A stretch of DNA of 64,000 nucleotides from Aliiroseovarius sp. Z3. GTDB lineage: Bacteria > Pseudomonadota > Alphaproteobacteria > Rhodobacterales > Rhodobacteraceae. The translations under genes were made by a program, and so were the position numbers. Numbering within the stretch: the stretch's first letter is position 1; each line of letters begins with the position of its first letter. Location of the stretch: assembly GCF_029105185.1 (NCBI RefSeq), contig NZ_JAFMZK010000001.1, positions 62,001 to 126,000 on the forward strand, read 5' to 3'. Positions 48,168 to 62,597 of this stretch are shown here, piece by piece. Below the pieces are notes generated by a model. It was not told the DNA's origin. It saw only the letters and a program-made list of their open reading frames with translations, and made no database searches.

Positions 48168-48953
48168 ATGGCCATCACGACATCGCTGGACGGCAAGACC
48201 GCGGTCATCACAGGATCAAATTCGGGTATCGGGCTTGGAATCGCGCGCGAAATGGCGCGGGCGGGTGCGGATGTTGTTCTGAATTCGTTCACCGACAACG
48301 ACGAAGACCATGCGCTGGCCGGCGATATCGCCAAGGAATTCGGTGTTACGGCACGGTATATTCAGGCGGATATGTCAAAAGCCGATCAATGCCGCGCCCT
48401 GATCGAGAAAAGCGGGCAGTGCGATATCCTGATCAACAACGCCGGCATTCAGCACGTGGCCCCCGTCGATGAGTTCCCGACGGAAAAATGGGATGCCATC
48501 ATCGCGATTAACCTGACTTCGGCCTTTCATACGATTGCAACGGCGCTGCCGATGATGCGAAAAGCCGGGTGGGGACGGGTGATCAACATCGCCTCGGCCC
48601 ACGGGTTGACTGCGTCACCTTACAAATCCGCCTATATCGCGGCCAAGCACGGGATTGTCGGCCTGACCAAGACGGTTGGTCTGGAAACCGCCGAAGACCC
48701 GATCACCAGCAATGCGATCTGCCCGGGCTATGTGTTGACCCCGTTGGTCGAGGCGCAGATCCCCGACCAGATGAAGACCCACAATATGGGCCGGGACGAG
48801 GTGGTGCGCGATGTCATGCTGGCCCGCCAACCATCGAAAGAGTTCGCCACGGTGGAACAGATGGGCGGTACAGCGGTCTTCCTGTGTTCAGATGCGGCAG
48901 CGCAGATCACCGGCACGACCATTTCCGTCGATGGCGGCTGGACGGCCCTGTAA
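48168..48953 (+). CDS. bdhA: 3-hydroxybutyrate dehydrogenase
   Basis: A 261-residue short-chain dehydrogenase that interconverts (R)-3-hydroxybutyrate and acetoacetate with NAD. The Rossmann motif is GSNSGIG (16-22), the catalytic serine lies in NIASAHG, and the catalytic pair is Y-x-x-x-K in SAYIAAKHG. The C-terminal ICPGYVLTPLVEAQI matches the BdhA family, so the call is more specific than a generic SDR. AGAAGGGA precedes the ATG. It is followed after 6 bp by a patatin-like gene, which could supply hydroxybutyrate from polyhydroxybutyrate. Confidence 0.92.
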   Translation: MAITTSLDGKTAVITGSNSGIGLGIAREMARAGADVVLNSFTDNDEDHALAGDIAKEFGVTARYIQADMSKADQCRALIEKSGQCDILINNAGIQHVAPVDEFPTEKWDAIIAINLTSAFHTIATALPMMRKAGWGRVINIASAHGLTASPYKSAYIAAKHGIVGLTKTVGLETAEDPITSNAICPGYVLTPLVEAQIPDQMKTHNMGRDEVVRDVMLARQPSKEFATVEQMGGTAVFLCSDAAAQITGTTISVDGGWTAL

Positions 48954-53714: not shown

Positions 53715-55805
53715 ATGGCAACCCGGCCCGAAATCCTGTTTCCGCTGTTTGCCGATCTGGAAACCCTGGGCGGTATCGGAGGAAAGACCGCCAAGGCTTT
53801 GGGAACGCTGGGAATTGAGCTGCCGCGTGATTTGCTTTTTTGGCTGCCCCATGCGGGCATCGACCGCAAATTCCGCGCCTCGATCACCGAGGTGCAGCCG
53901 GGCGATATGGCGACGGTGGAAATTGACGTGGTGCAGCATCGACCCGGCCGCACGAAATCGGCGCCTTATCGGGTCGAGGTGCGCGACGCGCTGACGGCGT
54001 TCGAACTGGTGTTTTTCCATGCCAACGCGGCTTGGTTGGGTAAGCAACTTCCCGAAGGGGAAAAACGCGTGATTTCCGGCAAAGTCGAAAGTTTCGATGG
54101 CAAGCTGCAAATCGTCCATCCCGATTATATCGTGACGCCGAAAGATGCGGCCAGCATCCCGGATTTCGAACCGGTCTATCGCCTGACCGCCGGTGTGACC
54201 GGGCGCACGATCGCCAAGGGTGTGGGCGAGGTTCTGACCCGTCTTCCGACCCTGAAGGAGTGGATCGATCCGGAGTGGAAAAAACGCGAACACTGGCCTG
54301 ACTGGCACAAGGCTCTGATGGCGGCCCATACGCCCGAAGGGGCCGATGACCTGTCGCCGCAATCGCCGACGCGCAGACGGCTGGCCTATGACGAGTTTTT
54401 CGCCCACCAACTGACGCTGGCGCTGGCCCGCGCCAAGGTGCGGCGCGGAAAGGGGCGGGTCAGCGTAGGCACGGGGGAGTTGCAGGCCAAGGTGCTGGCA
54501 GCCCTGCCTTACAAACCAACCAGTGCCCAGACCCGCGCGGTCGAGGAGATCGGTGCCGATCTGGCCTCGGGCAAGCGGATGAACCGTTTGTTGCAGGGGG
54601 ATGTCGGGTCGGGCAAGACGCTGGTGGCGCTTCTGTCGCTGCTGATTGCGGTCGAGGCAGGCGGGCAGGGCGTGATGATGGCGCCCACGGAAATTCTGGC
54701 CCGCCAGCATCTGGAAGGTCTGCGGCCCTTGGCCGAGGCAGCCGGTGTCGTCGTTGAAATCCTGACCGGGCGCGACAAGGGGGGCGAGCGGCGCGCAAAG
54801 CTGGAGGCTTTGGCTAAGGGCGATATCCACATCCTTGTCGGCACCCATGCGGTGTTTCAGAAAGATGTCGAATTTCATGACCTTCGCCTGGCCATCGTCG
54901 ATGAACAGCACCGCTTTGGCGTGGCGCAAAGGATGGAGTTGGGGGCGAAGGGGCAGGCCGCAGATGTGCTGGTGATGACCGCAACGCCCATCCCGCGCAG
55001 TCTTGCTCTGGCGCAATATGGCGACATGGATGTCTCGGTGCTGGATGAAAAGCCGCCGGGGCGCAAACCGATCAAGACGGTGTTGGTGTCCTCGGGCCGG
55101 ATCGACGAGGTGGTCGAGCGGCTGCGTCGCGCGATGGCCGATGGGGCGCAGGCCTATTGGGTCTGCCCACTGGTCGACGAAAGCGAGGTCATGGACCTGA
55201 CCGCCGCCGAAGAACGGTTCAAACACCTGCGCGCCGCCTTGGGTGAAGGCGTGGTGGGGATGGTGCACGGCCAGATGCCACCGGCCGAGAAAGATGCCGC
55301 GATGGCAGATTTCGTCGCGGGCAAGACCAAGCTGCTTGTGGCGACCACGGTGATCGAGGTCGGGGTGGATGTGCCCAATGCCTCGATCATGGTGATCGAA
55401 CGGGCCGAGCATTTCGGACTGGCGCAGTTGCACCAGTTGCGCGGGCGGGTCGGGCGCGGGCAGGCGGCGTCGACCTGTCTGCTGATGTATCAACCGCCCC
55501 TGACCGAAGGTGGCGAAAAGCGCCTGGCGGTGATGCGCGACACCGAGGACGGGTTCGTGATCTCGGAGGCCGACCTTGCGATGCGCGGCGCGGGCGATGT
55601 GCTGGGCACCGCGCAGTCGGGCCTGCCACGGTTCTGGGTGGGTGACTTGGAACATCAGGCCGGGCTGATGGCGGTGGCCCAGAAAGACGCGCGGCTTTTG
55701 TTGCAACAAGACCCGGACCTGACCAGCCCGCGCGGCCACGCCGCCCGTGTTCTGCTCTGGTTGATGAGACAGGACGAGGCGATCCGTTTGATTTCAGTGG
55801 GTTAG
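53715..55805 (+). CDS. recG: ATP-dependent DNA helicase RecG
   Basis: A 696-residue branch-migrating helicase that regresses stalled forks and processes Holliday junctions. An N-terminal wedge domain (OB fold, about 55-160) is followed by a helicase core with Walker A GDVGSGKT and the DEQH box in IVDEQHRFG. The LRGRVGRG motif VI and the TRG region follow. Starts 3 bp after ligA. The stop at 55805 is immediately followed by the GTTC-repeat region that precedes a small SOS-like gene. Confidence 0.95.
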   Translation: MATRPEILFPLFADLETLGGIGGKTAKALGTLGIELPRDLLFWLPHAGIDRKFRASITEVQPGDMATVEIDVVQHRPGRTKSAPYRVEVRDALTAFELVFFHANAAWLGKQLPEGEKRVISGKVESFDGKLQIVHPDYIVTPKDAASIPDFEPVYRLTAGVTGRTIAKGVGEVLTRLPTLKEWIDPEWKKREHWPDWHKALMAAHTPEGADDLSPQSPTRRRLAYDEFFAHQLTLALARAKVRRGKGRVSVGTGELQAKVLAALPYKPTSAQTRAVEEIGADLASGKRMNRLLQGDVGSGKTLVALLSLLIAVEAGGQGVMMAPTEILARQHLEGLRPLAEAAGVVVEILTGRDKGGERRAKLEALAKGDIHILVGTHAVFQKDVEFHDLRLAIVDEQHRFGVAQRMELGAKGQAADVLVMTATPIPRSLALAQYGDMDVSVLDEKPPGRKPIKTVLVSSGRIDEVVERLRRAMADGAQAYWVCPLVDESEVMDLTAAEERFKHLRAALGEGVVGMVHGQMPPAEKDAAMADFVAGKTKLLVATTVIEVGVDVPNASIMVIERAEHFGLAQLHQLRGRVGRGQAASTCLLMYQPPLTEGGEKRLAVMRDTEDGFVISEADLAMRGAGDVLGTAQSGLPRFWVGDLEHQAGLMAVAQKDARLLLQQDPDLTSPRGHAARVLLWLMRQDEAIRLISVG

Positions 55806-55812
55806 CGCATCC

Positions 55813-55847
55813 GTTCTCAAAAGTTCACAAATGTTCTTAAAAAGTTC
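55813..55847 (+). promoter_or_regulatory. Tandem GTTC repeats, alphaproteobacterial LexA (SOS) box
   Basis: Four direct GTTC repeats start at 55813, 55823, 55833 and 55844, so the spacing is 10, 10 and 11 bp, about one helical turn. The last pair is exactly GTTC-N7-GTTC, the consensus LexA box of alphaproteobacteria. The others are GTTC-N6-GTTC, one base short. The array lies right after the recG stop and 93-127 bp upstream of the small gene at 55940. Confidence 0.6.
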
Positions 55848-55939
55848 TTTACAAGACGCCTGAGAATATGCGAACAAAAGGGCAACAAAACGGATGGCAA
55901 CCCCAAGATGCCACCAGACGAGAGAGCAGGAGATACACC

Positions 55940-56062
55940 ATGTTGCATGACGTAAAAGCCGTATTGACCCGATCATCCGCCACCATCTGGCAGGATGCGA
56001 TCGGGGGGATGTCCTTGCTTGTCGTGCTGTTTGGCGCGCTGCATCTGCCGGGGATGATCTGA
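55940..56062 (+). CDS. Small single-span membrane protein behind a LexA-type box
   Basis: A 40-residue product: a polar, basic N-terminus (MLHDVKAVLTRSSATIWQDA) and a hydrophobic segment of about 17 residues (about 22-38) ending in LHLPGMI. An AGCAGGAG ribosome site at 55925-55932, 7 nt before the ATG, is strong. Upstream GTTC repeats suggest LexA control. Small SOS-induced membrane proteins such as Caulobacter SidA block cell division; this could be a functional analogue, but sequence similarity to SidA was not established and its role is unknown. A terminator lies 154 bp downstream. Confidence 0.6.
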   Translation: MLHDVKAVLTRSSATIWQDAIGGMSLLVVLFGALHLPGMI

Positions 56063-56215
56063 CCCCAAACCCAGTTTCTGCCAGCTCAGGGTCCGGACAC
56101 TGCATCATGTCCCAATGTCGATGCGTCCAGACGGTTCACTGCCCGTCGCCTGTCCCACGTTCCGGTGTTTTGCCTCATTCCTGCACCGGACCCGGAAATC
56201 CCGAGCCGCAACTGC

Positions 56216-56251
56216 CGCCGCCTCCCTGCCAGGAGCGCGGCGGTTTTTTTA
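56216..56251 (+). terminator. Rho-independent terminator after the small SOS-linked gene
   Basis: Stem CCGCCGC-CTCC / GGAG-C-GCGGCGG with one bulge, loop CTGCCA, then seven T at 56245-56251. It overlaps the end of the convergent scaffold gene by 3 bp. The transcript would carry a long 3' region, with an internal CCGGTG / CACCGG dyad near 56161-56190. Confidence 0.8.
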
Positions 56252-56680
56252 TGTGGCGTCGATGGCGTTGAGCGTGGCGTCGAAAGGCAAAAGGATCGAG
56301 GCATGGCGATTCTTGAAATCCCTGGCCGGCAGCAGAACTTCGTACCCTTCAAAAGGCGCCGAGGGGACGGGGCCGTCCTTTGTCAGCATTGCATGCAGGG
56401 CGTCGCGGCCTTGTTGCAATGTCTCGCGATCCAGTCCGATCACGACTTTTCCCAGAATGGCGGCCGATGCCTGACCCAGCGCACAGGCCTTCACATTCTG
56501 CGCAAACTGGGAAACCGCACCATCAGTCAGAGCAACCCCGACAGTCACGGTCGAGCCACAGAGGGGTGAGCGCGCCTTGGCCTCTCCCTGCGGGTCCTGG
56601 AGAGAGCCAAGATGGGGAATGGCCGCGGCCAGGGCAAGGATATGTTTCGAATAAAGTTTGATTAGGTCGCTGTCGCTCAT
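56249..56680 (-). CDS. IscU/NifU-like iron-sulfur cluster scaffold protein
   Basis: A 143-residue scaffold protein. The IscU-type first ligand is in [10 protein letters not shown] (Cys41) and the second in KACALGQAS (Cys66). The third ligand site, normally R-x-x-C, reads NRHASILLP with His126 in place of cysteine. This suggests either an altered cluster-binding mode or a transfer role rather than a standard assembly scaffold. AGGACG precedes the ATG at 56680. It diverges from hisI with 71 bp between them. No isc or suf genes are adjacent. Confidence 0.83.
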
Positions 56681-59819: not shown

Positions 59820-62597
59820 TCAGCTTTCGCTGCCCGTGACGTCGTTTGTCCCGCCTTCGCGGTCTTCATCCTCGGATTTTTCGGCAATCCGCGCGACCGA
59901 CACGACCTCTTCCCCTTTGCCGGTGTTGAACACCTTGACCCCGCCGGCCCCGCGCGAGCGGAAGCTGATGCCGTTGACCGGGCAACGGATCGACTGGCCT
60001 TTCGAGGTGGCCAGCATGATCTGATCGTCGATCTCGATCGGGAAGCAAGCGACGATTTCGCCGCCTTTCATGGCCGCGACCCCTTGACCGCCACGTCCGC
60101 TGACGCGGTAGTCGTGACTGGAGTTCAGGTTGCCGATGCCGCCCTTGTTGATCGTAACAAGCAGATCGTTGGCCGCCAGCATCTCCTGATACCGCTCTTC
60201 CGACAGATCGCCCGAAACCTCGCCGTTTTCGTCGTCGGCAGTATCACTGCCCAATTCCGAGCGGAAACGCCTGATGAAAGCCGTGCGCTCTTCCGGGGTG
60301 GCCTCGAAATGGCGGATGACCGAGGCCGAGACGACCTCGTCCCCGTCATTTACCAGCTTGATGCCGCGCACACCGGTCGAAGACCGCGAATTGAAGACCC
60401 GCGCATCCGTCACGGGGAAGCGGATTGCCCGCCCGGCAGACGTGACCAGCATCACGTCATCGTTTTCATCGCAAATCCGGGCGTTGATCAGGCGGGTGCC
60501 TTCGTCTTCGCCTTCGAACTTCATCGCAATCTTGCCGTTGCGCATGACGTTGGTGAAATCCGACAGGCGGTTGCGTCGCACCGAACCCTTGGACGTCGCG
60601 AAAACGATTTGCAGATCGTCCCAGTCTTTTTCATCGCGATCCACCGGCAGGATGGCCGCGATCGAAACACCCGTCGGAATTGGCAGGATGTTCACCAGCG
60701 GCTTGCCCTTCGCGGTGCGGCCCCCTTGGGGCAGGCGCCAGGTTTTCAACTTGTAGGCCATACCGTCATCGGTGAAGAACAGTAGCTGAGTATGCGTATT
60801 GGCGACGAAAAGCGTGGTGATCGCATCCTCGTCCTTGGTTTGCATTCCCGACAGACCCTTGCCACCGCGTTTCTGCGCGCGGAAATCGGCCAGCGGCGTG
60901 CGCTTGGCCCATCCGCTTGCGGTTATGGTAACAACCATATCTTCGCGCTCGATCAGGTCTTCGTCGTCCATGTCGCCGGACCAATCGACGATTTCGGTGC
61001 GACGGGGGACGGTGTAAGCCTCTTTCACCTCGGTCAGTTCGTCCGAAATGATCGCCATGATCCGTTCGCGAGACCGAAGGATATCCAAGTAATCTCTGAT
61101 CTTTGCAGCAAGTTCTTGAAGTTCGTCCGTCACCTCTTTCACGCCCATGGCGGTCAGGCGTTGCAGACGCAGCTCAAGGATCGCACGGGCCTGGGTCTCG
61201 GACAGGTTATATGTCCCGTCCTCGTTCATTTTGTGGGTCGGATCGTCGATCAGCTGGATGTATTCGGCGATATCCCGTGCGGGCCAACGACGCTCCATCA
61301 GCTTGGCGCGGGCGTCGGCCGGATCGTGCGAGGCACGGATGGTCGCGACCACTTCATCGACATTGGTAACGGCCACGGCCAGACCACACAAAACATGGCT
61401 GCGTTCACGCGCCTTGCGTAGTTCAAAAGCTGTTCGGCGTGTGACAACTTCTTCCCGGAAGCTCACGAAATAGCTCAGGAAATCACGAAGCGTCAGTTGC
61501 TCGGGCCGCCCGCCGTTCAGGGCCAGCATGTTGCAGCCGAACGAAGTTTGCATTGGCGTGTAGCGGAACAACTGGTTCAGCACGACCTCGGGCGTCGCAT
61601 CGCGTTTCAGTTCGACTACCACGCGGACACCGATCCGGTCGCTTTCATCCTGAACTGACGAAATGCCTTCGATCCGCTTGTCCCGCACAAGTTCGGCGAT
61701 CTTTTCGATCATCGAAGCCTTGTTCACCTGATAGGGGATTTCATCCAGCACGATAGCATAGCGGTCTTTGCGAATTTCCTCGATCCGCGTCTTGGCGCGC
61801 ATGATGACGCTGCCACGGCCTTCCAGATACGCCTTTCGTGCGCCTGACCGGCCCAGCATGATGCCGCCGGTTGGGAAATCGGGGCCGGGGATGTAGTCCA
61901 TCAACCCTTCCGAGGTCAGGTCGGGGTTCTCGATCAGCGCCAGCGTGCCGTCGATGACTTCGCCCAGATTGTGGGGCGGGATGTTGGTGGCCATACCGAC
62001 AGCGATGCCACCCGCACCATTGACCAGCATGTTCGGGAAGCGGGCGGGCAGGACGGTCGGCTCAAGATCCTTGCCGTCGTAATTGTCCTGAAAATCGACC
62101 GTGTCTTTTTCGATGTCGGCCAGCAACGAGGCGGCCGGCTTGTCCATCCGCACTTCGGTATATCGCATGGCCGCAGCATTGTCGCCGTCCATTGATCCGA
62201 AGTTTCCCTGACCATCCAGAAGCGGCAGCGACATGGAAAACGGCTGCGCCATGCGCACCAACGCGTCATAGATCGCACTGTCACCATGCGGGTGGTATTT
62301 ACCCATCGTGTCGCCCACCGGACGGGCAGACTTGCGGTACGGTTTGTCATGCGAATTCCCGGTCTCGTACATCGCATAGAGGATGCGGCGGTGCACCGGC
62401 TTCAAACCGTCGCGCAGATCAGGGATCGCCCGGCTCACGATCACGCTCATCGCGTAATCGAGATACGAGGCTTTCATCTCTTCTTCGATGGTGATCTGAG
62501 GACCGTCGTAATGGGGACGTTCAGGCTGCATTTCGTCTGTCTGCTCAGGGGGTTCTGGGGTGTCTGTCACGTTGTCCGCCGTTTTGGTGTGTTTCAC
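59820..62597 (-). CDS. gyrA: DNA gyrase subunit A
   Basis: A 925-residue type II topoisomerase subunit. The catalytic tyrosine lies in [10 protein letters not shown], the quinolone-determining region reads [17 protein letters not shown] with Ser and Asp at the usual sensitive positions, and a GyrA box QKRGGKG identifies gyrase rather than ParC. The start shown is a GTG at 62597. A second GTG at 62570 ([10 protein letters not shown]...) has GGCGGA upstream, and a TATAGT lies directly before 62597, so the shorter form is possible. Confidence 0.95.

Follow-up and report, generated by a model that had tools for sequence, protein, structure and literature searches.

What lies directly behind recG in Aliiroseovarius sp. 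Z3, and does it belong to the SOS response? The window analyzed here is a stretch of 64,000 nucleotides of this genome. A first-pass annotation had pointed to a tiny gene preceded by four phased GTTC repeats, which it took for a possible LexA-controlled inhibitor of cell division. Comparison of the locus with its counterparts in other genomes showed that a fixed operator-promoter, a peptide of 36–42 residues with a single hydrophobic helix, and a kept structured 3′ RNA with a terminator of its own follow recG in most sampled genera of the family. The best explanation, to which I assign a probability of about 0.45, is a single short transcription unit of the SOS response that encodes a membrane checkpoint peptide. 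The features of the locus are listed in Table 1.

Table 1. Features at and downstream of recG in the 64,000-nt window of Aliiroseovarius sp. Z3 (numbered from the first letter of the window).
Feature	Position	Strand	Evidence
recG, kept upstream neighbor	53715..55805	+	NCBIfam RecG equivalog; upstream in 100/101 loci
GTTC array, spacings 10, 10, 11; last two copies exact GTTC-N7-GTTC (LexA-type)	55813..55847	+	
TTTACA, probable -35 element	55848..55853	+	conservation in the promoter alignment; -35 role putative
Second, degenerate LexA-type box GAAC-N7-CAAC	55872..55886	+	117/117 distinct loci; likeness to the recA box
Ribosome site AGGAG	55928..55932	+	sequence
40-aa single-helix membrane protein (predicted)	55940..56062	+	profile 252/295; pN/pS 0.35; AlphaFold2
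Structured RNA in the 3′ UTR: three hairpins plus a closing stem, unpaired C-rich motifs	56063..56214	+	stems, blind search, covariation
Hairpin P2, UGUCCC in loop	56102..56124	+	loop UGUCC in 56/68 aligned rows
Middle hairpin, loop UUCACUGC in own genus	56130..56147	+	loop motif not general: UGCC 5/68
Hairpin P3, UGCCUCA in loop	56161..56190	+	UGCC in P3 loop, 40/68 rows
Intrinsic terminator, G+C-rich hairpin and T7	56215..56250	+	sequence; genus identity 0.92

The four GTTC copies start at 55813, 55823, 55833, and 55844, and they are present with the 10-, 10-, and 11-bp phasing and the exact N7 pair that had been described. The 40-codon gene with a strong ribosome site was also confirmed, its AGGAG lying 7 nt ahead of the ATG. 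The reported terminator exists, but it lies about 150 bp past the range 55813–56062 in which it had been noted. Two elements had been overlooked. One is a LexA-like box downstream of the array, similar to the recA box; the other, behind the ORF, is a structured RNA with C-rich loops. Within the genus, sequence identity is 0.86 in the operator, 0.47 in the spacer, 0.90 in the GAAC box, 0.55 in the remaining 5′ UTR, and 0.74 in the ORF. On the 3′ side it is 0.88 in P2, 0.86 in the middle hairpin, 0.68 in P3, 0.92 in the terminator, and 0.51 past the terminator.

Is the GTTC array more than a chance occurrence? The plain GTTC-N7-GTTC pattern is found three times in the window versus 2.04 expected (39 of 100 shuffles reach three), and 133 times in the whole genome versus 125 for a reversed-pattern control. 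Thus, the motif alone proves nothing, and its plain counting was rejected as evidence for a LexA site. The two other copies in the window, at 48276–48290 and 61421–61435, are covered by long open frames of 262 and 892 aa and have probably arisen by chance. As for the longer arrangements, the triple GTTC-N6-GTTC-N7-GTTC occurs once in the window versus 0.02 expected, and GTTC-N7-GTTC followed after 24 nt by GAAC-N7-CAAC occurs once versus none in 100 shuffles.

The operator was then assessed in 52 distinct loci that had been chosen by the protein alone. All 52 have GTTC-N7-GTTC, a gap of 23–24 nt, and GAAC-N7-NAAC upstream of the gene. The triple GTTC is found in 50 of them, its first pair being spaced by N6 rather than N7, and four copies are found in 20. 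The four phased repeats of the first-pass annotation are therefore a true trait of Z3 but not a general one. A promoter model (R1) was built from 29 of the first 30 loci, excluding L012, which has no N6 copy. The operator sequence model matches 264 of the 295 sampled genomes of the family Rhodobacteraceae, and only one place in the Z3 genome at E ≤ 10. In 110 genomes that were compared, a subset of those matched by both operator and protein, the protein match begins 13–59 nt 3′ of the operator element on the same strand. Since the loci L102–L131, L154–L173, and L194–L225 were chosen by the promoter model or pattern, they were not counted as evidence for the operator.

A pattern scan of one genome per species, covering 84,980 species, gave 32 contigs, a minority of the loci because the spacer of the pattern is one base longer than the commoner form. 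The family ORF is present on all 32 contigs and RecG on 31; in the remaining one (L198) the sequence ends before recG could show. The titles of these contigs show that the family is Rhodobacteraceae; one of the 32 is labelled merely "Alphaproteobacteria bacterium".

Five promoters (L025, L027, L206, L217, and L221) have TTGAT or TTGAC in place of TTTAC beside the last GTTC. Since these variants are nearer to the standard -35 sequence, they support the -35 role of this element.

Downstream of the array, a GAAC follows at a gap of 23 nt (70 loci) or 24 nt (47 loci) in all 117 distinct loci, 65 of which came from loci chosen by the operator element. Its N7 partner is CAAC in 104 of the 117, TAAC in 11, and AAAC in 2. 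The family consensus of this box is TGAGAACAAA....CAACA, and the Z3 genome has GCGAACAAAAGGGCAACA; the recA box reads TGAGAACAAGAGCAGAACA in the congeners L098 and L099 and CGAGAACAAGAGCAGAACA in Z3. About 95–150 nt before recA, the recA loci of the genus (L088–L100) have a GTTC whose N7 partner is degenerate (in several congeners it reads GTGC) and, downstream of it, an exact GAAC-N7-GAAC, a layout resembling that of the tiny gene. The recA operator of the genus thus likewise combines an upstream GTTC element with a downstream box; the downstream box forms the exact N7 pair at recA, and the upstream box does so at the tiny gene.

Elsewhere in the Z3 genome, GTTC-N7-GTTC is found about 100 nt before recA and as two overlapping copies before lexA. 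It also lies ahead of uvrA, at a distance of 74 nt, and ahead of a PA0069-family radical-SAM gene, at about 190 nt; these last two are the loci L050 and L031. Judging from their sequences, the boxes at these four genes fit LexA, and uvrA and the radical-SAM gene are likely to be further LexA targets.

Could the GTTC element be the site of another regulator, placing the unit outside the SOS response? The one N6 spacing would suit such a regulator, and so would the fact that the plain LexA motif is not enriched across the genome. The base before the second GTTC points the same way, being A in 115 of 117 loci and T in the five other boxes seen in the Z3 genome. However, the lexA operators of two other families (L075 and L077) also have A at this position, the exact N7 pair is kept in every protein-picked locus, and the downstream box is similar to the recA box. 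I consider a regulator other than LexA improbable, and LexA control of the tiny gene very likely on the pattern of the boxes. LexA bound to GTTC-N7-GTTC and to the downstream GAAC-N7-CAAC would, with high probability, repress the promoter, and DNA damage would release it through RecA-driven cleavage of LexA. Caulobacter LexA uses the site GTTCN7GTTC, which is present only once in about 97% of the SOS promoters there, according to the accessible part of PMC12700426; two kept boxes would thus be unusual. More than one LexA dimer may bind, as the first-pass annotation had suggested for the four phased repeats, but this is more likely to involve the kept downstream box than the GTTC array, of which only three copies are general.

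Is the short ORF itself real? Of the 295 sampled genomes of the family, 170 match when the single Z3 protein is the query and 252 when a 30-member profile is used; in the other 43 the tiny gene was not found by the profile. All 21 genomes of the genus have a match, one of them with residues 16–40 only. All 153 loci examined with an HMM contain a member of the family. The 115 distinct proteins are 36–42 residues in length, and 95 of them have exactly 40; L245 was left out since its match starts at model position 16 and its start could not be set. The raw pN/pS value is 0.35 for 20 sequences of the genus. The ORF is real. The first-pass annotation had tied its proposal to conservation of the frame and the repeats in close relatives, and both are kept. 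Its remark on the position directly after recG also holds: RecG lies upstream in 100 of 101 loci, a number that includes repeats of one genome, with L027 as the exception.

In a sample of 385 genomes of the class, six match, and five of these belong to the family. The remaining match is partial and lies within a frame of 495 aa; it was taken as chance and rejected as a homologue. Searches of Pfam, NCBIfam, and PHROGs with the 40-aa protein gave no match under E = 0.1, and a phage search gave none. A plasmid search gave one weak match (NZ_CP039965.1:332590-332709, Pseudorhodobacter turbinis, 42.5% identity, E = 0.02). This replicon of 1.58 Mb is listed as a plasmid, and the protein encoded there is a possible relative.

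What kind of protein is it? AlphaFold2 with 18 sequences predicts helices at residues 2–11 and 13–39 (mean pLDDT 83.7, and 97 for residues 21–30). The one membrane helix that had been proposed is borne out insofar as the model gives one long helix over the hydrophobic half, which is presumably inserted in the membrane. Positions 20–40 of the Z3 protein are uncharged, and in most members they are hydrophobic except H35. D19, G22, L26, L30, L34, and P37 are each found in at least 81 of 95 proteins and span a helix arc of 120 degrees, while L36, found in 85 of the 95, falls outside this face. The conservation moment exceeds that of shuffles with modest p values of 0.016, 0.028, and 0.042 for three choices of the region. 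Since the kept residues lie on one face of the modelled helix, packing of the helix against a partner is suggested.

A known SOS peptide of similar kind is SidA of Caulobacter, a 29-aa inner-membrane protein that binds or acts on FtsW, as far as the accessible part of PMC4211646 describes it. Loss of lexA in Caulobacter leads to filamentation through sidA (PMC12700426, accessible part). From what these sources give, the shared traits are the very small size, the place in the inner membrane, and the control by LexA, the last two being predictions from sequence for the Z3 protein. The differences are the length (29 versus 40 residues), the second LexA-type box, and the kept 3′ RNA. Inhibition of division by the peptide is plausible, and the step from an SOS membrane peptide to a division inhibitor is one of analogy with SidA. 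The peptide might sit N-in in the inner membrane and turn the face of D19, G22, L26, L30, L34, and P37 to a membrane partner, by which division would be delayed; I hold this part of the mechanism with less than even confidence. By the same analogy, the likeliest partner would be the septal FtsW/I/N complex.

The peptide could instead be an SOS-controlled depolarizing or dormancy peptide like TisB (29 aa) and DinQ (27 aa) of Escherichia coli, small hydrophobic SOS peptides described in the accessible text of PMC8309996. The size, the hydrophobicity, and the SOS-type control are alike. However, in the same text the membrane helices of TisB and DinQ are polar or charged and both peptides have antisense RNAs as antitoxins, while positions 20–40 of the Z3 protein carry no charge, unlike the polar patch of DinQ, and the gene keeps a stable place after recG. 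This explanation is unlikely, and it is weaker than the RNA-centered alternative that is weighed below.

What does the 3′ UTR contain? In 112 of 117 loci, a terminator-like hairpin with a T-run closes it 114–247 nt past the stop codon. In 103 UTRs, CTGCC occurs 2.67 times per UTR versus 0.53 in shuffles, and CTGTCC 1.50 times versus 0.13. A model-free test at the first CTGTCC, in which longer loops were permitted, found perfect stems of at least 6 bp in 34 of 99 loci versus 1.8 expected, with 15 distinct inner stems among stems of at least 5 bp. An earlier, narrower stem test gave no signal at the first CTGTCC (mean 2.68 versus 2.62 in the control), and 6.12 versus 3.60 at TGCCTSA (n = 33). 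RNAalifold on a MAFFT alignment of the 103 UTRs found the terminator only, and covariation within the genus alone is weak, with 6 double-change pairs versus 5.3 in shuffles.

A covariance model (R2) was built from 13 sequences of one genus. In a search of 295 whole genomes, 26 match it at E ≤ 0.01, and the coordinates of 25 of these matches fall on the tiny gene or on its promoter; the match in G113 was left unplaced. With a wider model (R3), the 81 loci give 68 matching places at E ≤ 1; the 3′ UTR holds 67 of them, and the exception is in L197. It gives 49 matches at E < 0.01, 24 of them outside the training set. In the alignment fitted to R3, compensatory changes are found in 29 of 29 pairs, with 387 compensatory cells versus 131 ± 9 in shuffles and a covariation score of 0.420 versus 0.133 in shuffles and 0.041–0.091 with slid partners; alignments fitted to their own models in this way are biased towards structure. 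Among the 68 aligned rows, 66 carry UGCC or CUGC in the 5′ strand and 56 carry UGUCC in the P2 loop. A search of Rfam with positions 55700–56400 gave no match up to E = 1. By these sequence comparisons, the 3′ RNA looks like an undescribed RNA family.

Does the 3′ RNA control its own ORF? In 59 transcripts, the mean probability that the ribosome site is paired with the 3′ UTR is only 0.046, and that it is paired with anything, 0.71. A simple lock in cis is thus unlikely and unsupported. The 3′ RNA would leave the ribosome site of the gene unlocked, and it might be a stability element of the mRNA or be released as a small RNA.

The main rival to the peptide-centered reading starts from here. 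The locus could encode a dual-function SOS transcript whose main product is a 3′ small RNA acting via UUUCUGCCU and CUGUCCC, the peptide being a second output; the part of the RNA would be equal to or larger than that of the peptide. The strong covariation, the well-kept UGCC/CUGC and UGUCC motifs, the RNA's own terminator, and the low pairing with the ribosome site are in line with this. A precedent exists in Rhodobacter sphaeroides, whose CcsR RNAs have a loop motif different from those of the 3′ RNA found here. CcsR1–4 arise from the 3′ UTR of ccaF1 (PMC8625941, accessible part), and the arrangement is alike in that RNA elements lie in the 3′ UTR behind a small protein gene; both cases come from one bacterial family. 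CcaF1 is an RNA-binding protein according to that text, unlike the predicted membrane peptide. Purifying selection on the ORF speaks against the RNA as the main product, as does the narrower occurrence of the middle-hairpin and P3 motifs (5/68 and 40/68); the structured 3′ end may also do no more than stabilize the mRNA. I regard this rival as possible but doubtful. It is similarly tentative that a LexA-controlled transcript has both functions during DNA damage, the peptide halting division and the 3′ RNA acting on other RNAs.

Returning to the SOS unit with a membrane checkpoint peptide, its significance would lie in the family. To my knowledge, no SOS division inhibitor has been described for Rhodobacteraceae, and none was found in the titles and abstract openings of the literature searched. 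The tiny gene is a concrete candidate for one in most sampled genera, and the unit a candidate factor that halts growth or division during DNA repair. If the dual-function idea is true, one SOS switch would fire a protein arm and an RNA arm jointly, and should the two arms both be functional, post-transcriptional control would be coupled to the family's SOS response. The 40-aa protein and the 3′ RNA are undescribed in titles and abstract openings; supplements and most subscription journals were beyond reach, and an earlier mention there is possible. The word recG is missing from the main texts of PMC6473078, PMC8625941, and PMC5107571.

A variation of the 3′ RNA was found within the genus. A clade (L238–L244) has an insertion in the P2 loop, which apparently forms an extra small hairpin with another CUGUCCC. 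The number of CUGUCCC loops may vary among the loci.
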